Shown: positions 628-62,500 of the stretch, piece after piece
How positions within the stretch are numbered: position 1 is the first letter of the stretch
Layout: each line of letters begins with the position of its first letter
Notes under the pieces: model-generated
The model's input: only the letters and a program-made list of their open reading frames with translations
Told to the model about the DNA's origin: nothing
The model's database searches: none
Program-made: the position numbers and the translations under genes
Assembly (NCBI RefSeq): GCF_002356555.2
Contig: NZ_AP017372.2
Location: 1,116,001 to 1,180,000 of the forward strand
Length of the DNA stretch: 64,000 nt
Source of the DNA: Halorhodospira halochloris
GTDB taxonomy: Bacteria > Pseudomonadota > Gammaproteobacteria > Nitrococcales > Halorhodospiraceae
Direction of reading: 5' to 3'

Positions 628-802
628 AGTAGCCCCTAAAAATGCTCTCCAAAATTACCCCCGGAGCAACTCAACTGCCCCGGTGTGGAGGTCTTGGCGC
701 CAAGGATGGCGCCATGAAGCCTCCAGGGAAGGATTCACGGCGTCCTCCACACCGGGGCAGTTGGCAGTTGAGTGGCTCCGGAGGGAATTTTTAGAGGCGA
801 GC
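628..802. repeat. Dispersed hairpin element, full copy 1
   Basis: A 17-bp perfect inverted repeat (CTGCCCCGGTGTGGAGG at 675-691 and its complement at 744-760) is nested in longer imperfect arms: left CTCAACTG/CGGAGC and GCCCCTAAAAAT (632-674), right CAGTTGAG/GGCTCCG and ATTTTTAGAGGC (761-796). The interior holds the words GGCGCCAAGGATGGCGCC and CCAGGGAAGGATTCACGGCGTCC. A diverged second copy lies at 23481-23629 with the same architecture, so this is a dispersed element of MITE or REP type, not a plain terminator. It sits between cysE and ndk. Confidence 0.85.
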
Positions 803-16948: not shown

Positions 16949-17548
16949 ATGGGTCTAATGCGTTATCTGATCAGCGTAGTTGCCACTCTTATAGTGGTCT
17001 GGGTAGTCGTCCTCGGCTCGCTTAATCTTATGGAAGATTTAGGCAAGAACGTCGGCTACGGTGTCGAGCGGATGGTCTTGGGCGGCGACGATGAGCAAGA
17101 TATCGCCGATCTTGAGCAGTGGCTTACCGCTCGCGAGGAGCGGCTCGAGAAGGCCGGTGATCATTTGGGCTGGGCACGCCTGGCAGTCTGGGTGGCGCCG
17201 CCGGGGATGCGCAGCGAGGTGTCCCAAATCATCACTGATGCCCAGCAGTTACGTGTCCAAGCCCTGGAGTTGATCGGTGAGGTGGAGCGCCTGAATGCCG
17301 AGTACGATGCCTTTGCCCCGCTGATAGGCGAGCCGGTCTTGGTTGAGGGTAAGGGGTTTCCGGCTCGGGAGCAGTTGATGCGCCGCGAGGCCCTGGATTT
17401 GCTCAAGGAGATAGAGCAGATGATCAGGATGGCGCGAGCCTGGCAGCAGCTCAAACAGGACATGGAGGCAATTGGCGAGCGTGGCGCTGAGCTGCAAGAG
17501 CGGGCAGCTGCGGAGCAGGAGTATTGGGTGCCATTTAGAGGGGGCTAA
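16949..17548 (+). CDS. Hypothetical protein, N-terminal membrane anchor plus helical domain
   Basis: 199 residues. One membrane helix near the N-terminus (~5-27, LISVVATLIVVWVVVLGSLNL), then a Glu/Gln/Leu-rich helical body with two coiled-coil-like stretches (~55-75 and ~160-190). AAGG lies before ATG 16949. I do not recognise the family. By analogy with other single-span proteins it should face the periplasm, but topology is not certain. Followed by a 460-base gene-free stretch. Confidence 0.75.
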   Translation: MGLMRYLISVVATLIVVWVVVLGSLNLMEDLGKNVGYGVERMVLGGDDEQDIADLEQWLTAREERLEKAGDHLGWARLAVWVAPPGMRSEVSQIITDAQQLRVQALELIGEVERLNAEYDAFAPLIGEPVLVEGKGFPAREQLMRREALDLLKEIEQMIRMARAWQQLKQDMEAIGERGAELQERAAAEQEYWVPFRGG

Positions 17549-17586
17549 AGGGGGATTCAACGACGTCCTCTTGTGCAGTGCACACC

Positions 17587-17615
17587 GTGACATGTGAGCG
17601 ACTGTCAGCTACAAT
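17587..17615 (+). promoter_or_regulatory. Strong sigma70-like promoter
   Basis: GTGACA (17587-17592), an exact 17-bp spacer, TACAAT (17610-17615); one mismatch to consensus in each box. Predicted transcription start near 17622. No ORF follows before the terminator at 17710-17738. Confidence 0.65.
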
Positions 17616-17621
17616 GATCTA

Positions 17622-17738
17622 AGTAACTAGGCCTTGATTAGGCTAGGCTGTGCCAGCCGGCGAGTTGGTATCGCGAAGGCTGTTAGCTTGAGGTTATTGA
17701 TTGAGAAGACGGGAGGATCCCTGAACCTCCCGTTTTTT
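17622..17738 (+). ncRNA. Candidate small RNA between a promoter and a terminator
   Basis: The interval from the predicted start to the end of a strong terminator is about 117 nt. It contains a small hairpin GGCTG-TGC-CAGCC (17646-17658) and no plausible ORF. Boundaries are predicted from the promoter at 17587-17615 and the terminator. It could equally be an attenuated leader for carA. I tried tmRNA, 4.5S RNA and 6S RNA signatures and saw none. Confidence 0.45.
17710..17738 (+). terminator. Rho-independent terminator
   Basis: CGGGAGG (17710-17716) pairs with CCTCCCG (17726-17732), 9-nt loop, then six T. It ends the candidate small RNA. Confidence 0.85.
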
Positions 17739-17750
17739 GTGTGCCCGAAT

Positions 17751-17881
17751 TCCCCGGCGAGTTAGCACCAGCACTTATCCGGCGTCGCCGGCGGGGATTG
17801 GCAGAGACACGGATGGGAGCTTCTGAGCATCTCTCTTGCGCCATTCGCCTGCCCTGTTGTGGTGCTAAATGGCGCCGGGGA
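17751..17881 (+). promoter_or_regulatory. Strongly folded element upstream of carA, possible structured leader
   Basis: Two stacked 9-bp perfect helices enclose a ~90-nt branched interior: TCCCCGGCG (17751-17759) with CGCCGGGGA (17873-17881), and TTAGCACCA (17762-17770) with TGGTGCTAA (17860-17868), separated by a 2/4-nt internal loop. Inside are CCGGCGTCGCCGG, GGCAG/CTGCC and GATG/CATC helices. Such a closed multibranch fold is typical of riboswitches or stable RNAs, but I do not recognise a class. The carA start is about 130 nt further on; the remaining bases 17882-18000 hold another small hairpin (TGCGG/CCGCA). Confidence 0.5.
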
Positions 17882-18009
17882 TAGGCGCTTATGGACCCTG
17901 CGGGGAGGGGCACCGCATCCTCTACTACTGGTTTGAGTGGCGCAAAGATTAGATCTAGGAAGTTCTTCAGAGGCAGCAAATTGCCACTAGCTCCATAAAG
18001 GAGGAAGCT

Positions 18010-19152
18010 TTGACTCGTCCAGCACTGCTCGTTCTCCAGGACGGTACGGTATTCCGCGGCGAAGCGCTTGGCAGCGATGGCGCGGTAACCGCAGAGGTGG
18101 TGTTCAACACCGCCATGACCGGCTATCAGGAGATCGCCACCGATCCTTCCTATGCCGGTCAAATTGTCACCTTAACTTATCCCCATATCGGTAATACCGG
18201 CATCAACTCCATAGATCGTGAGGACGATCGCATCCGTTGTGCTGGCCTGATCGTCCGCGATGTCCCGCTTCGTTACAGCAACTGGCGTGCCGAGTTGGGG
18301 CTACACGAGTGGCTGCAACTGCATGGGGTTGTCGCTATCGCTGGCATTGATACGCGGCGTTTGACCCGGATATTGCGCGAAAGAGGTGCCCAAGGTGGCT
18401 GTTTAGTAACCGGCGAAGGCGCTCTGGACAGCAACTGGGCATACCAGCAGGCCCAGGCCTATGCCGGGATGAGTGGACGTGATCTGGCTGGCGAGGCGGG
18501 CACGGGTAGTAGCTACGCCTGGTCGCGCGGTACTTGGCGGCTCGATGATGGTAGAGAGGATGCTGGAGCCCCTGAGCAGCAGCCGAGATTCAAGGTAGTT
18601 GCCTATGATTTCGGGGTTAAGCAGCATATCTTGCGCCTGCTGGTCGATCACGGCTGTCAGGTCAGCGTGGTTCCGGCGCACACATCGGCAGGCGAGGTTG
18701 CAGCGCTGGAGCCCGATGGGGTGTTTCTCTCCAACGGCCCGGGTGATCCCGAGCCGATGGATTACGCCATCGCCAATATTCGCAGCTTGCTTGAAGAGCA
18801 CCGTATCCCGGTTTTTGGCATCTGTCTTGGCCATCAACTGCTCGGTCTCGCCAGTGGGGCGCGGACGGTGAAGATGAAGTTCGGCCATCACGGGGCCAAT
18901 CACCCGGTGCAGGAGCTGGCTAGCGGCAGGGTGATGATATCCAGCCAGAACCACGGCTTTGCCGTTGATGAGGCGAGCCTGCCGGACAATCTTGAGCCTA
19001 CCCATAGGTCACTGTTTGACGGTTCACTCCAAGGGATAAGGCGCAGCGATGTGCCAGCGTTCGGTTTTCAGGGGCACCCCGAGGCGAGTCCCGGGCCGCA
19101 CGATGTTAGGCCACTGTTTCAGCAGTTTATCGAGATGATGGAGCAGCGATAA
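18010..19152 (+). CDS. carA: Carbamoyl-phosphate synthase small (glutaminase) subunit
   Basis: 380 residues. The start is TTG 18010, chosen because a near-perfect AAGGAGG (17999-18005) sits just upstream and the protein begins with the family's [15 protein letters not shown]. The class I GATase domain has the nucleophile in [12 protein letters not shown] and the His/Glu in [11 protein letters not shown]. It hydrolyses glutamine and channels ammonia to CarB for carbamoyl phosphate, shared by arginine and pyrimidine synthesis. Rare start codon plus strong ribosome site suggests tuned expression. Confidence 0.96.
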
Positions 19153-19265
19153 GGAATCTCCGCAGTCGAGTAGCTATTGTGTACCTCCCCGGGGTGTGAG
19201 CGTACCCGCTCTTCTCCGCGGTGGAAAAACAGCAACACCTCACCGAGCGAGCCTGCGAAAAGACT

Positions 19266-22200
19266 ATGCCAAAACGCACAGACATAAAATCAGTTCTCAT
19301 CATAGGTGCCGGTCCGATCGTCATCGGTCAGGCCTGTGAGTTTGACTACTCCGGCGCGCAGGCCTGTAAGGCCTTGCGCGAGGAGGGGTTGCGAGTGATT
19401 CTGGTCAACTCCAATCCGGCCACCATCATGACCGACCCGGAGACCGCCGATGCGGTCTACATTGAGCCGATCGAATGGCAGACGGTAGCCCGAATTATCG
19501 AGCGTGAGCAGCCTGATGCAGTTTTGCCGACCATGGGCGGACAGACCGCTCTTAACTGTGCGCTCGACCTGGTCAAGCACGATGTGCTGACGCGCTTCGG
19601 GGTAGAGATGATCGGTGCGAGCCGCGAGGCTATTGACAAGGCAGAGGAGCGCGAAGCGTTCCGCTCGGCAATGGCCAATATCGGCCTGGAGTCGCCACGC
19701 GCCGAGTTGGCACGCTCCATGGCTGAGGCGCAGGCGGCACAAGCGCGGATCGGCTTTCCGGTCATCATCCGCCCCTCTTATACCCTGGGCGGCTCCGGTG
19801 GCGGTATAGCCTATAACCGCGAAGAGTTTAACGAGATCGTCGAGCGCGGCCTGGATCTATCCTACACCAACGAGGTACTGCTCGAAGAGTCGGTGCTGGG
19901 TTGGAAAGAGTATGAGATGGAGGTGGTCCGTGATCGCAAGGACAATGCGATCATAATCTGTTCGATCGAGAATCTTGACCCGATGGGGGTGCATACGGGT
20001 GATTCGATAACCGTCGCCCCGGCTCAGACACTGACCGATAAAGAGTATCAGATTATGCGTGACGCCTCGTTGGCGGTGTTGCGCGAGATCGGTGTTGAGA
20101 CCGGTGGCTCTAATGTGCAGTTTGCCATCAACCCGGACAATGGGCGGATGGTGATCATCGAGATGAATCCGCGGGTCTCGCGCTCTTCGGCGCTGGCCTC
20201 CAAGGCAACCGGTTTCCCTATCGCCAAGGTTGCGGCTAAGCTGGCTATTGGTTATACCCTCGATGAACTGAGCAATGAGATAACCGGCGGCGCCTCACCG
20301 GCGTCATTTGAGCCGGCCATCGACTATGTAGTTACCAAGATACCGCGCTTTACCTTTGAGAAGTTCCCTCAGGCGCAGACCTATCTGACTACGCAGATGA
20401 AGTCGGTAGGCGAGGTTATGGCTATCGGCCGAACCTTCCAGGAGTCATTCCAGAAGGCCTTGCGCGGCTTGGAGCAGGATCTTGATGGGCTAGAGGAGCG
20501 TGTCGATCGTAATCGCCAAGATGTTAAAGAAGCGATCCGCCATTCGCTTCGCCAGCCAACCCCAGAGCGGGTGCTGCATCTAGGTGATGCCTTCCGGTGC
20601 GGCTTCACCCTTGAGCAAGTCTATGAGATGACCGCCATAGATCCTTGGTTCTTGGCCCAAATCGAGGATCTTATCGCAACCGAAGCGCAGGTAGCCGCGA
20701 GCGTCTTTAGCTCTTGCGATGCGTCAACCTTGCTCAGTTATAAACGGCGCGGTTTCTCCGATGCGCGCCTAGCTAGTTTATGGGGCGTTGAGGAGGCTGA
20801 TGTACGGGCTCGGCGCCACGAACTCGGGTTGCGACCGGTGTTTAAGCGGGTCGACTCATGCGCGGCCGAGATGCCGACCATAACCGCCTATATGTACTCC
20901 ACCTATGAGGAGGAGTGTGAGTCGCAGCCGACCCAGCGGCGCAAAATAATGGTCCTCGGCGGTGGCCCTAACCGTATAGGTCAGGGCATTGAGTTTGACT
21001 ACTGCTGTGTCCATGCCGCCTTGGCGCTGCGCGAAGATGGCTATGAGACCATCATGGTTAATTGTAATCCGGAGACAGTCTCGACCGACTACGACACCTC
21101 GGATCGGCTCTACTTTGAGCCGTTGACCTTCGAGGACGTTATGGAGATCGTTGAGACTGAGCGCCCGGAAGGGATAATCGTCCAGTATGGCGGCCAGACG
21201 CCGCTTAAACTCGCCCGCGGGCTTGAGGCCGCCGGGGCGCCGATTATCGGCACCACCCCCGATTCTATCGATCTAGCCGAGGATCGGGAGCGTTTTCAGG
21301 AGATGATCGGGCGGATTGGGTTGATGCAACCGCCTAACCGCACGGCTCGCACAGAGAGCGATGCCCTGCGCCTGGCAGCCGAGATAGGTTATCCACTTGT
21401 GGTGCGGCCATCCTATGTGCTTGGCGGGCGGGCCATGGAGATCGTCTATGAGGAGAGCGAGCTGCGGCAGTACATGAATGAGGCGGTGCGGGTCTCGAAT
21501 GAGTGTCCGGTACTGCTTGATCGCTTCCTAGACGACGCGGTGGAGGTCGATGTTGATGCGGTCAGCGATGGCCACAGTGTGGTTATCGGCGGGATCATGC
21601 AACACATTGAGCAGGCAGGGGTCCACTCGGGAGATTCGGCCTGTTCCATGCCACCTTATACGTTGCCCGCGGATGTCCTTGATCGGGTGCGGGAGCAAGT
21701 CCGTTTGCTTGCCACCGAATTGGGCGTAGTCGGTTTGATGAATGTGCAGTTTGCCATCCAGGGGCAAAGTATATTTTTGCTCGAGGTCAACCCTCGTGCC
21801 TCGCGCACCGTGCCCTATGTCTCGAAGGCCTGCGGGGTGGCGCTGGCCAAGGTGGCCGCGCGCTGCATGGCAGGCGAGACGCTTGCTGCACAGGGGGTGG
21901 ATAAAGAAGTCGTACCGTCCTATTATTCAGTCAAAGAGGCTGTATTTCCATTCCTTAAATTCCCTGGCGTAGACCCAATTCTTGGCCCGGAGATGAAATC
22001 TACCGGCGAGGTCATGGGTATTGGCGCCTGTTTTGGTGAGGCTTACGCTAAGTCGCAGTTGGCCGCAGGAGTGGTAGTGCCTCGTGGTGGTAGTGTTTTC
22101 ATTAGTGTGCGCGAAGCCGACAAGGAGGCTGCGGTGGAAGTTGCGCGGGATTTGGCCCGACGTGGGTTTCACTTGATTGCCACCCATGGTACCGCGGCCG

Positions 22201-22487
22201 CCCTCGAGGGCGCGGGCCTGGAGGTCCGACATATAAACAAGGTCACCGAGGGTAGGCCGCATGTAGTCGACGCAATCAAGAATGATGAGATAGATTTGAT
22301 CGTGAACACCACTGAAGGGCGGCAGGCTATTGCTGATTCCTATTCCATAAGGCGCGAGGCGCTCCAGCGTAAGGTATGCTATACCACCACTATAGCTGCG
22401 GCACGGGCTATGTGTCTGGCGCTGGATCATCTGAAGGAGTGGGAGGCTCGCCCCCTTCATGTCCTGCACAGGGAGATGACGGGATGA
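19266..22487 (+). CDS. carB: Carbamoyl-phosphate synthase large subunit
   Basis: From ATG 19266 the protein is 1073 residues, the same as E. coli CarB. It has two homologous ATP-grasp halves ([20 protein letters not shown] at the N-terminus and [19 protein letters not shown] at ~560) and the C-terminal allosteric MGS-like domain (from ~935). It makes carbamoyl phosphate from bicarbonate, ammonia and two ATP. An upstream in-frame ATG at 19221 would add 15 atypical residues. The gene overlaps greA by four bases. Confidence 0.97.
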
Positions 22488-23480: not shown

Positions 23481-23629
23481 GCGCCTTCCAAAACTCCCCT
23501 GAGCCATCTAGCTGCCCCGGTATGGGGATCTTGACGCCAGGGATGGCGCTAGGAAGGCTCCCGGGATGTATTCTTGGCGTCCTCCATAACGGGGCAGCTA
23601 GATGGCTCAGGGGAGGTTTTGGGAGGCGC
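23481..23629. repeat. Dispersed hairpin element, full copy 2
   Basis: Arms of about 45 bp (left 23481-23525, right 23584-23629) are inverted copies with only a few differences: GCGCC, CTCCCCTGAGCCATCTAGCTGCCCC... on the left and its complement on the right. The interior repeats the words of copy 1 in diverged form (GACGCCAGGGATGGCGCT and GGGATGTATTCTTGGCGTCC). It lies exactly between two convergent genes, so its transcript hairpin could stop transcription from both sides. Confidence 0.88.
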
Positions 23630-60492: not shown

Positions 60493-62500
60493 CGCCGAGC
60501 AAAGCTCGGAGTATCTTGCGGGGTGGATGTCCCCGTCGGGCAAGGGTTAGCCACCCACCCGTATCGAGTCTTGGACCTGTGGCGGAGTAAGGGAAGACGA
60601 ACAAGGCAGGTTAAGCGTAGACAGAGAATCCTGTAGGCCGTAGGGGTTATCGTGCGCCCTGAAGTGCTGGTACAGCTTCGACAAGCTCAGTTCCGGACGC
60701 CGAGGGTTTTAACGTGCCCGAAGGCAACACGAAGCACCCGCAATGGCGAGGGTGTGGAGGTCTGGCGGAGTCATCAGGCCGTGGCATGCAGGGAGAGATA
60801 CGTCGGAGAACTCGGGAAGCCCCTATGAGCTCCTGTGGTGGTGAAGGCCGGCAAGGGCCTACGGCTATTGAGACACGAAGGGGAAACCCGGAGACGGAGT
60901 TATGCCGGAGCCTACGACCGGAGTGACCGGAACCACGCGCAGGTGGGGCGTTGAGAGGCGCCTAGAAGCGCTCGGGGTGTCTTATCAAGCATAGTACTCG
61001 GGGGTGGGGAAAGCCCATCACAAGGGGAAGGACTTGACGGAAGTACGCAGCCCAAAAAGGAAACTCATGCCGGACACGGTCGGGCCGGGAGACCATGAGC
61101 GAACCTCACTGTGGGGGATAGCCAAGCGGGCGAGGGTCTGCAAGGACCATCGTTTCCAGGACCTTTACCGGCTGCTGGATGCGGAGCTATTGCACGCGAG
61201 TTGGCGCGATCTGAACAAGAAGGCGGCGGCTGGCGTGGATGGCGTGGCGATGGCGGTGTACGAGGAGGATCTGGACGCCAACATCGGCGCACTGGTGGAG
61301 CGACTGAAGACGAAGCGCTACCGGACCCGGCGGGTCCGGCGTTGCTACATCCCCAAGGAGGATGGCGGCGAGCGTCCATTGGGGATACCGGCGGTGGAGG
61401 ACAGGCTGGTGCAAGCGGCCTGTGCTCGGATACTGACCGTCATCTACGAGGCGGACTTTCTGGACGTGAGCTACGGCTACCGGCCAGGGAGGAGCGCTAA
61501 GGACGCGGTGGCCGATCTGGGTTTCAACCTCCAGTACGGCAAGTTTGGTCACGTGGTCGAAGCGGACATCAAGGGCTACTTCGACGCAATTGACCATGAC
61601 TGGCTGCTGGAGATGTTGTCGCTGCGGATCGACGACGGTGCGTTCCTGGGGCTGATCCGCCAGTGGTTGCAGGCGGGGATACTGGACATGGACGGGGAGG
61701 TCCTGCACCCGGTGACGGGCAGCCCCCAAGGTGGGGTCGTCTCGCCGGTGTTGGCGAACGTGTATCTGCACTATGCGTTGGACCTTTGGTTCGAGCGGGT
61801 GGTGAAGCCACGTTGCCGAGGTCAGGCGCTTCTGGTTCGGTACGCCGATGACTATGTTTGCGCGTTTCAGTTTCAGGAGGACGCCGCGCGCTTCTATCGC
61901 GTGGTGCCGCGCCGACTGATGCGGTTTGGGCTACAGGTGGCGCCGGAGAAGACGCGATTGATGCGTTTCAGCCGGTTCCACCCGGGCTTGCGGCGACGTT
62001 TCGCCTTTCTCGGCTTTGAGTTGTACTGGAATCGGGATAGACGGGGCGAGTTGCGGGTGATGAAGCGCACGGCCCGCAAGAAACTGCAAGCAGCCAAGCG
62101 ACGGTTGAAGGGCTGGATACGGGCCAACCGGCATCTGCCGGGGCGCGTGTTTATCCAGGAGCTGAATCGTAGACTGGTAGGTCATTACAACTACTTCGAG
62201 CTCCGCAGCAATGAGCAGGGTCTAGGGAGCTACTACATCTTCGCCATACGGTGTGCCTTCAAGTGGCTGAACCGGCGAGGTGGCAAGCGCAGTAGTTTCA
62301 ACTGGGCGCAATACATTGCGGCGTTGAGGAAGCTGGGAGCGGCGCAGCCGCGGATCGCGGAGAGGCAACGAGCGCATGCGGTCTTTGCATAAGGGCACGC
62401 CCGGCGCGAAGGCGAGTACAACCGAGGAACCGGATGCGGGAAAACTGCATTTCCGGGTCTGTGCGGCGGCGCCTGGCAACGGGCGTTCCTACCGTGAGAT
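60481..62500 (+). mobile_element. Group II intron with reverse transcriptase
   Basis: 5' end approximate: GTGTCG at 60481 fits the GUGYG start, but GTGCGCCC at 60652 is another possibility. Noncoding leader to 61003 is GC-rich and rich in helices. The 3' end is inferred from a domain V hairpin (GGATGCGGGAAAACTGCATTTCC region, 62430-62456 approx.) and a domain VI stem with TTCCTACCGTGAGAT ending near 62500. It is in the same orientation as the cassettes. Class not determined. Confidence 0.7.
61004..62392 (+). CDS. ltrA: Group II intron reverse transcriptase/maturase
   Basis: 462 residues from GTG 61004; ATG 61067 is the next in-frame Met. RT motifs: GVDG, RRCYIPKEDGGERPLGIP, VVEADIKGYFDAIDH, SPQGGVVSPVLANVYLHYALD, catalytic LVRYADDYVCAF (YADD at 280-283). 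The maturase domain follows (GHYNYFELRSN ... FNWAQYIAALRKLG). No HNH endonuclease domain at the end. Symbol reflects function only. Confidence 0.92.
   Translation: MGKAHHKGKDLTEVRSPKRKLMPDTVGPGDHERTSLWGIAKRARVCKDHRFQDLYRLLDAELLHASWRDLNKKAAAGVDGVAMAVYEEDLDANIGALVERLKTKRYRTRRVRRCYIPKEDGGERPLGIPAVEDRLVQAACARILTVIYEADFLDVSYGYRPGRSAKDAVADLGFNLQYGKFGHVVEADIKGYFDAIDHDWLLEMLSLRIDDGAFLGLIRQWLQAGILDMDGEVLHPVTGSPQGGVVSPVLANVYLHYALDLWFERVVKPRCRGQALLVRYADDYVCAFQFQEDAARFYRVVPRRLMRFGLQVAPEKTRLMRFSRFHPGLRRRFAFLGFELYWNRDRRGELRVMKRTARKKLQAAKRRLKGWIRANRHLPGRVFIQELNRRLVGHYNYFELRSNEQGLGSYYIFAIRCAFKWLNRRGGKRSSFNWAQYIAALRKLGAAQPRIAERQRAHAVFA

Follow-up and report, generated by a model that had tools for sequence, protein, structure and literature searches.

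Between an intrinsic terminator and the carA gene of Halorhodospira halochloris lies a stretch of 131 nt that is predicted to fold strongly, which raises the question of whether the leader of this operon carries a regulatory RNA or a piece of inserted DNA. The locus was analyzed within a 64,000-nt stretch of the genome (contig NZ_AP017372.2, positions 1,116,001 to 1,180,000 of the forward strand), hereafter called the window, whose own numbering is used throughout. The original prediction had described two stacked, perfect 9-bp helices at 17751-17881 that close a multibranched interior of about 90 nt, with a terminator upstream and a TTG-initiated carA gene downstream, and had read the element as either a new structured RNA or a hairpin insertion. 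Its anatomical description was exact in each of these respects, including the ends of the helices, the ribosome site and the identity of carA. The parts of the locus are as follows.

17587-17615, plus strand: sigma-70-type promoter, GTGACA-N17-TACAAT, the sole consensus match in 17540-18020; similar promoters precede the terminator in relatives
17616-17709, plus strand: transcribed leader from promoter to terminator, with a putative start site
17710-17738, plus strand: intrinsic terminator, CGGGAGG..CCTCCCG-TTTTTT, from its fold and its occurrence in the order the probable carAB attenuator
17751-17759, plus strand: 5′ arm of the outer helix of the element, from fold and pairing
17762-17770, plus strand: 5′ arm of the second helix, from fold and pairing
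17771-17859, plus strand: interior of 89 nt, branched in the predicted fold
17860-17868, plus strand: 3′ arm of the second helix, from fold and pairing
17873-17881, plus strand: 3′ arm of the outer helix, from pairing; 17868-17881 (14 nt) recurs unchanged in an arm of a dispersed repeat
17998-18004, plus strand: ribosome-binding site AAGGAGG, from sequence
18010-19152, plus strand: carA with a TTG start, from Pfam matches to CPSase_sm_chain and GATase
19221-22487, plus strand: carB, from the list of open reading frames and a Pfam search

Both helices of the element are perfect Watson-Crick pairings, the outer one formed by UCCCCGGCG and CGCCGGGGA and the second by UUAGCACCA and UGGUGCUAA. When the 131 nt of the plus strand were folded alone, the minimum free energy was -64.5 kcal/mol (z = -3.06), and 3 of 200 shuffles reached as low a value; the z is biased because the ends of the folded stretch were picked to suit the hairpin. 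A count of nested helices was therefore used as a fairer test, in which perfect 9+9 helices were sought anywhere in a region, with gaps of ≤5 nt and a span of ≤200. No such structure occurred in 2000 dinucleotide shuffles of the intergenic region 17549-18009, nor did shuffling the whole window 20 times produce one, while the real window contained three, the other two (672-763 and 23494-23615) being copies of a dispersed palindromic repeat described below. The nested-helix structure of the element exceeds chance. The minus strand folded nearly as well as the plus strand (-57.5 kcal/mol, z = -2.87), as is expected of a DNA palindrome. An open frame of 47 codons with a GTG start (17741-17884, plus strand; assigned by eye) has nearly the same extent as the element and is probably there by chance; no Pfam match was found for the 46-residue frame inside the element (17744-17881).

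How stably the helices are predicted to form depended on the length of RNA that was folded. Their probability was ~0.9-1 for the element alone, in 17739-17890 and in 17622-17890; it was ~0.15 in 17739-18012, 0.25 in 17733-18030, 0.01 in 17622-18030, where a fold forced to contain the helices lies only 0.6 kcal/mol above the best one, and 0.6-0.7 in 17587-18130. The whole leader (17622-18030) had an ordinary fold, with 7 of 100 shuffles folding at least as well (z = -1.64). This dependence on length, a competing fold that is better by only 0.6 kcal/mol and the ordinary fold of the leader do not suggest a tuned switch.

Counterparts of the element were sought in relatives, in its own genome, in Rfam and in mobile DNA. 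The carA gene was located in 51 of the 54 genomes of the order, the present one included, and the leaders read for the element came from nine of the 11 other genomes of the family (G002, G003, G004, G006, G007, G008, G009, G010, and G011; carA was not located in G001 and G005). None of these nine leaders contained the element. One of them, G009, was considered for a shared two-helix architecture and rejected, since its predicted fold uses other pairings. The spacer between terminator and start codon measures 271 nt here vs. 22-154 nt in the nine relatives, and that of G002 gave no DNA match. The carA gene of G002 itself matches in two pieces (G002:C8:38680-39906; residues 1-191 and 190-378), possibly through a frameshift or an assembly error. 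A DNA search of 59 genomes, again including the present one, with 17551-18109 as query and ten candidates per genome scored, gave matches in ten other genomes: nine only from 17988 on, i.e., at the ribosome site or later, and the tenth (G026) over 24 bases within the element. With the element alone as query, 2 of the 368 other class genomes searched gave matches of 21-24 bases (two candidates per genome scored), and none were found among plasmids and phages. Interior matches of 21-24 nt in G026, G318, and G377 were dismissed as chance, as was one of 54 nt at 78% in L002, which is readable as coding. Among 105 scored carA leaders, nested 9+9 helices were found upstream of carA in two, the present one and that of a Thiohalobacter MAG (L058); six of the 111 leaders were left out because the carA start was not located. 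The L058 structure is a nested palindrome ~300-180 nt before carA.

Only one whole copy of the element was found in its own genome by DNA search, and no second copy was detected by DNA, by a paired-arm pattern or by an arm pattern with ≤3 mismatches, so the many unrelated copies by which the original prediction would have known a repeat did not turn up. Its proposed Rfam scan likewise yielded no known family: nothing matched the element at the gathering threshold, and at E ≤10 the region 17560-18030 gave two matches, to a microRNA family and an lncRNA family, both scoring far under the cut-offs and read as chance. Elsewhere in the window, Rfam matched a group II intron (RF02005, 117.8 bits; 60525-60780, plus strand). 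On these sequence comparisons, a conserved or shared leader RNA is not supported, and the new structured RNA first proposed finds no support on any of three counts (nine leaders, Rfam and copy number). The proposed hairpin insertion is the better fit, given the wealth of long palindromes in this genome; neither an empty site nor, by eye, a target duplication was found for it.

The genome contains a dispersed, MITE-like palindromic repeat of ~150 bp (our designation). It occupies at least 40 places in the genome (40 of 342 candidates were scored, and all 40 were places), and 49 places, or 47 under another merging rule, were counted in a 464-kb sample consisting of the window and 20 sampled stretches of the genome. 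Two copies lie in the window (647-797 and 23485-23629), with many further copies in the rest of the genome. A core of ~65 nt is constant, and the arms differ among copies yet mostly remain complementary; in 33 near-full copies, 24 of 35 consensus pairs were changed on both sides, as counted without a null run on a structure drawn from the same alignment. Outside this genome, matches were confined to the core region (three in G002, one in G006). Literature searches for the repeat, by words and by sequence words, returned nothing usable. Nested 9+9 helices numbered 30 in the 464 kb, 24 of them in the dispersed repeat; the remaining six comprised the element, three apparent copies of one other palindrome, one that recurs elsewhere and one in single copy. 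Further long palindromes of the same genome, some of them repeated, were noted at L184 7505-7620, 8240-8439, 8595-8794, and 11861-12059, and at L189 17198-17294.

The element and the dispersed repeat share some features. Both are long palindromes of similar length with GC-rich arms, and 14 nt of the element (17868-17881) are identical to an arm stretch of the repeat, a length of identity that 12 of 2930 131-mers from the genome and 18 of 3000 shuffles also reached. No shuffle out of 400 equaled the best local alignment between the two (47 columns, score 23); among genomic stretches, 1 of 400 did and, in a larger control, 9 of 6000. The outer arms of the element, TCCCCGGCG..TTAGC, correspond to one subtype of the repeat's arms, as in copy L169 (G000:C1:1319073-1319204). 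Unlike the repeat, however, the element has neither the constant core nor the CCTCTAAAA outer ends, and a profile HMM of the repeat gave it 2.0 bits, whereas the window's two true copies scored 118.8 and 90.5, so that the element is not recognizable as a member. Random palindromes with the arm composition of the element matched the repeat arms equally well in 20 of 1000 cases. Moreover, one and the same arm of the element is matched to one part of the repeat by the 14-nt identity and to another by the best local alignment, so that the two support no single model. Taken together, the sequence likeness is suggestive of a kinship that would be weak and partial.

We consider it probable that the element is a quasi-palindrome private to this lineage, most likely a palindromic insertion that has decayed and is inert in the carAB leader, and that any control is likelier to be exerted upstream, at the terminator. 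As a special case, the element might be a diverged member of the dispersed repeat whose arms were retained and whose core was replaced. The fit of the outer arms to the L169 subtype and the low chance rates of the 14-nt identity and of the local alignment point this way; the missing core and outer ends, the 2-bit score and the random palindromes that do equally well point the other way, and we regard this version as possible but rather doubtful. It is also unlikely, in our estimate, that the element arose by lineage-specific growth of an ancestral hairpin, its loop having enlarged, and now serves as a spacer or stabilizer of the read-through mRNA. Such an origin is suggested by short predicted hairpins that begin after the T-run of the terminator in G004 (here CCCGCCCG/CGGGCGGG, following GCATGC), G006, G007, and G008, with a less clear one containing G-U pairs in G011, and by the sequence after the T-run, which aligns by eye between this genome (TGTGCCCGAAT-TCCCC) and G008 (CATGCCCGTA-TCCC); compensatory changes were likewise judged by eye from the alignment. 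Because these small predicted hairpins lie at about the same place in four relatives, and less clearly in a fifth, the outer helix may itself be ancestral. Nevertheless, the spacers of G003 and G010 are too short for a hairpin, those of G002 and G009 have different predicted folds, and none of the ten spacers, that of the element among them, is clearly more stable when folded than its shuffles (z = -1.23 to +1.10).

A true cis-acting structured RNA, i.e., a riboswitch or protein-binding leader restricted to this lineage that would act on carA translation after read-through, appears improbable. The local fold is strong, it lies within the predicted mRNA of a biosynthetic operon, its helices are predicted to form before the downstream RNA is made (the probability of ~0.9-1 in 17622-17890), and a hairpin known from Polynucleobacter, the 'carA motif', is among the proposed riboswitch candidates (PMC8632094). 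Against this, the element is absent from the nine relatives and lacks any Rfam match above threshold, 116 nt separate its end from the ribosome site (17881 to 17998), and competing folds in longer leader RNAs leave its helices with probabilities from 0.01 to 0.7 depending on length. We hold out similarly little prospect for a young, species-level leader RNA that would have grown from the small post-terminator hairpin into a second control of carA translation or mRNA stability, acting after attenuation.

The favored reading, a decayed palindromic insertion, shifts attention to the terminator. The terminator stretch (17706-17740) folds at -17.2 kcal/mol with z = -4.06, and of the 27 scored loci of the order, 24 had a hairpin terminator within 300 nt upstream of carA; the controls gave 3 of 27 for the reverse strand and 2 of 111 for random windows. 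These 27 came from 31 loci (L117-L146 and L027), G025, G034, G015, and G036 having been dropped because the start was not found by motif; the three loci without a terminator (G022, G033, and G035) all belong to one genus (g12). Among 78 other named loci, mostly from Gammaproteobacteria and chosen by carA similarity (80 less L059 and L099), 37 had a terminator of varied sequence before carA, against 8 when the reverse strand was scored and 10 among 360 random windows. The energy cut-off of -11 used in these counts was set after a first look at the same loci with -9. In 12 of the 24 order loci with a terminator, the T-run starts ~24-28 nt before the (approximate) carA start, too close for a further promoter to fit in between; transcription of carA therefore most likely passes through the terminator.

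Within the genus and family, the block before carA consists of a promoter (GTGACA or TGGACA, 17-18 nt, and a TATAAT-like hexamer), a leader and a GGGAGG-type terminator. The genes upstream of this block differ among relatives: judged by eye from translations, G004 has a divergent ABC-transporter ATPase gene and G006 a cysH-like gene in the same direction, and in the present genome the upstream gene has 199 codons and no Pfam match. The terminator had been taken as the boundary of another unit; we assign it to carA instead, because across most of the order such a terminator occurs together with the promoter and the start codon of carA. By analogy with known systems, it is probably a carAB attenuator. 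Open frames run across the terminator, but no conserved leader peptide was recognized among them by eye, and no RNA antiterminator pairing with the 5′ arm of the terminator was seen by eye. Our literature search, which covered mostly open-access papers, found no report of a carA leader or attenuator in this order, and in Naville and Gautheret (2010; PMC2965389) carA was found only in the reference list.

A model consistent with these observations is that a palindromic insertion, of a kind numerous in this genome, lodged in the carAB leader, downstream of the attenuator terminator and upstream of the ribosome site, and decayed afterwards. RNA polymerase would start at the promoter at 17587-17615 and end at the terminator at 17710-17738 unless relieved, and the extent of read-through would set carAB expression, with pyrimidine as the signal by analogy with P. 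aeruginosa. The read-through RNA would then carry the palindrome as a 131-nt local fold, an inert spacer that stretches the distance from terminator to start codon to its present 271 nt.

Three known carA leaders invite comparison. In E. coli the same operon is controlled by tandem promoters, ArgR, PepA, and IHF (as summarized in PMC4997734), and thus has two promoters where one consensus match is found here. The carA (SRC-12-1) motif of Polynucleobacter, a hairpin with 30 representatives that was put forward as a riboswitch candidate (PMC8632094), resembles the element in being an extended, imperfect hairpin upstream of carA; it differs in lying directly before the ribosome site, whereas the element has a single representative and lies 116 nt away. 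The closest likeness is to the carAB attenuator of Pseudomonas (P32 leader RNA), which has the same order of promoter, leader and stem-loop terminator before carA (PMC4997734), and it concerns 17587-17738 rather than the element. The hairpin sequence differs, there is no Rfam match here, and a leader peptide was not recognized. The Rfam family RF01676 (P31) has matches in two Pseudomonas loci (L069 2923-3001 and L081 2906-2983, both minus strand), on the strand opposite to that of the carA leader, and may have been drawn on the wrong strand. In P. aeruginosa, carAB has a single promoter and a leader stem-loop whose removal abolishes the pyrimidine response; in P. syringae, an RNA 3′ end was mapped at the terminator, 45 bp before carA, and disruption of the stem-loop raised expression (PMC4997734). 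The analogy is incomplete, since a leader peptide is reported for P. aeruginosa and the authors found none in P. syringae, where arginine plus uracil made no difference by qRT-PCR (PMC4997734). Promoter, leader and intrinsic terminator are nonetheless present before carA here as in the Pseudomonas-type attenuator, and if the terminators found before carA in this order and beyond are regulated, the transcription attenuation described for carAB of Pseudomonas would be widespread as a mode of pyrimidine/arginine control.
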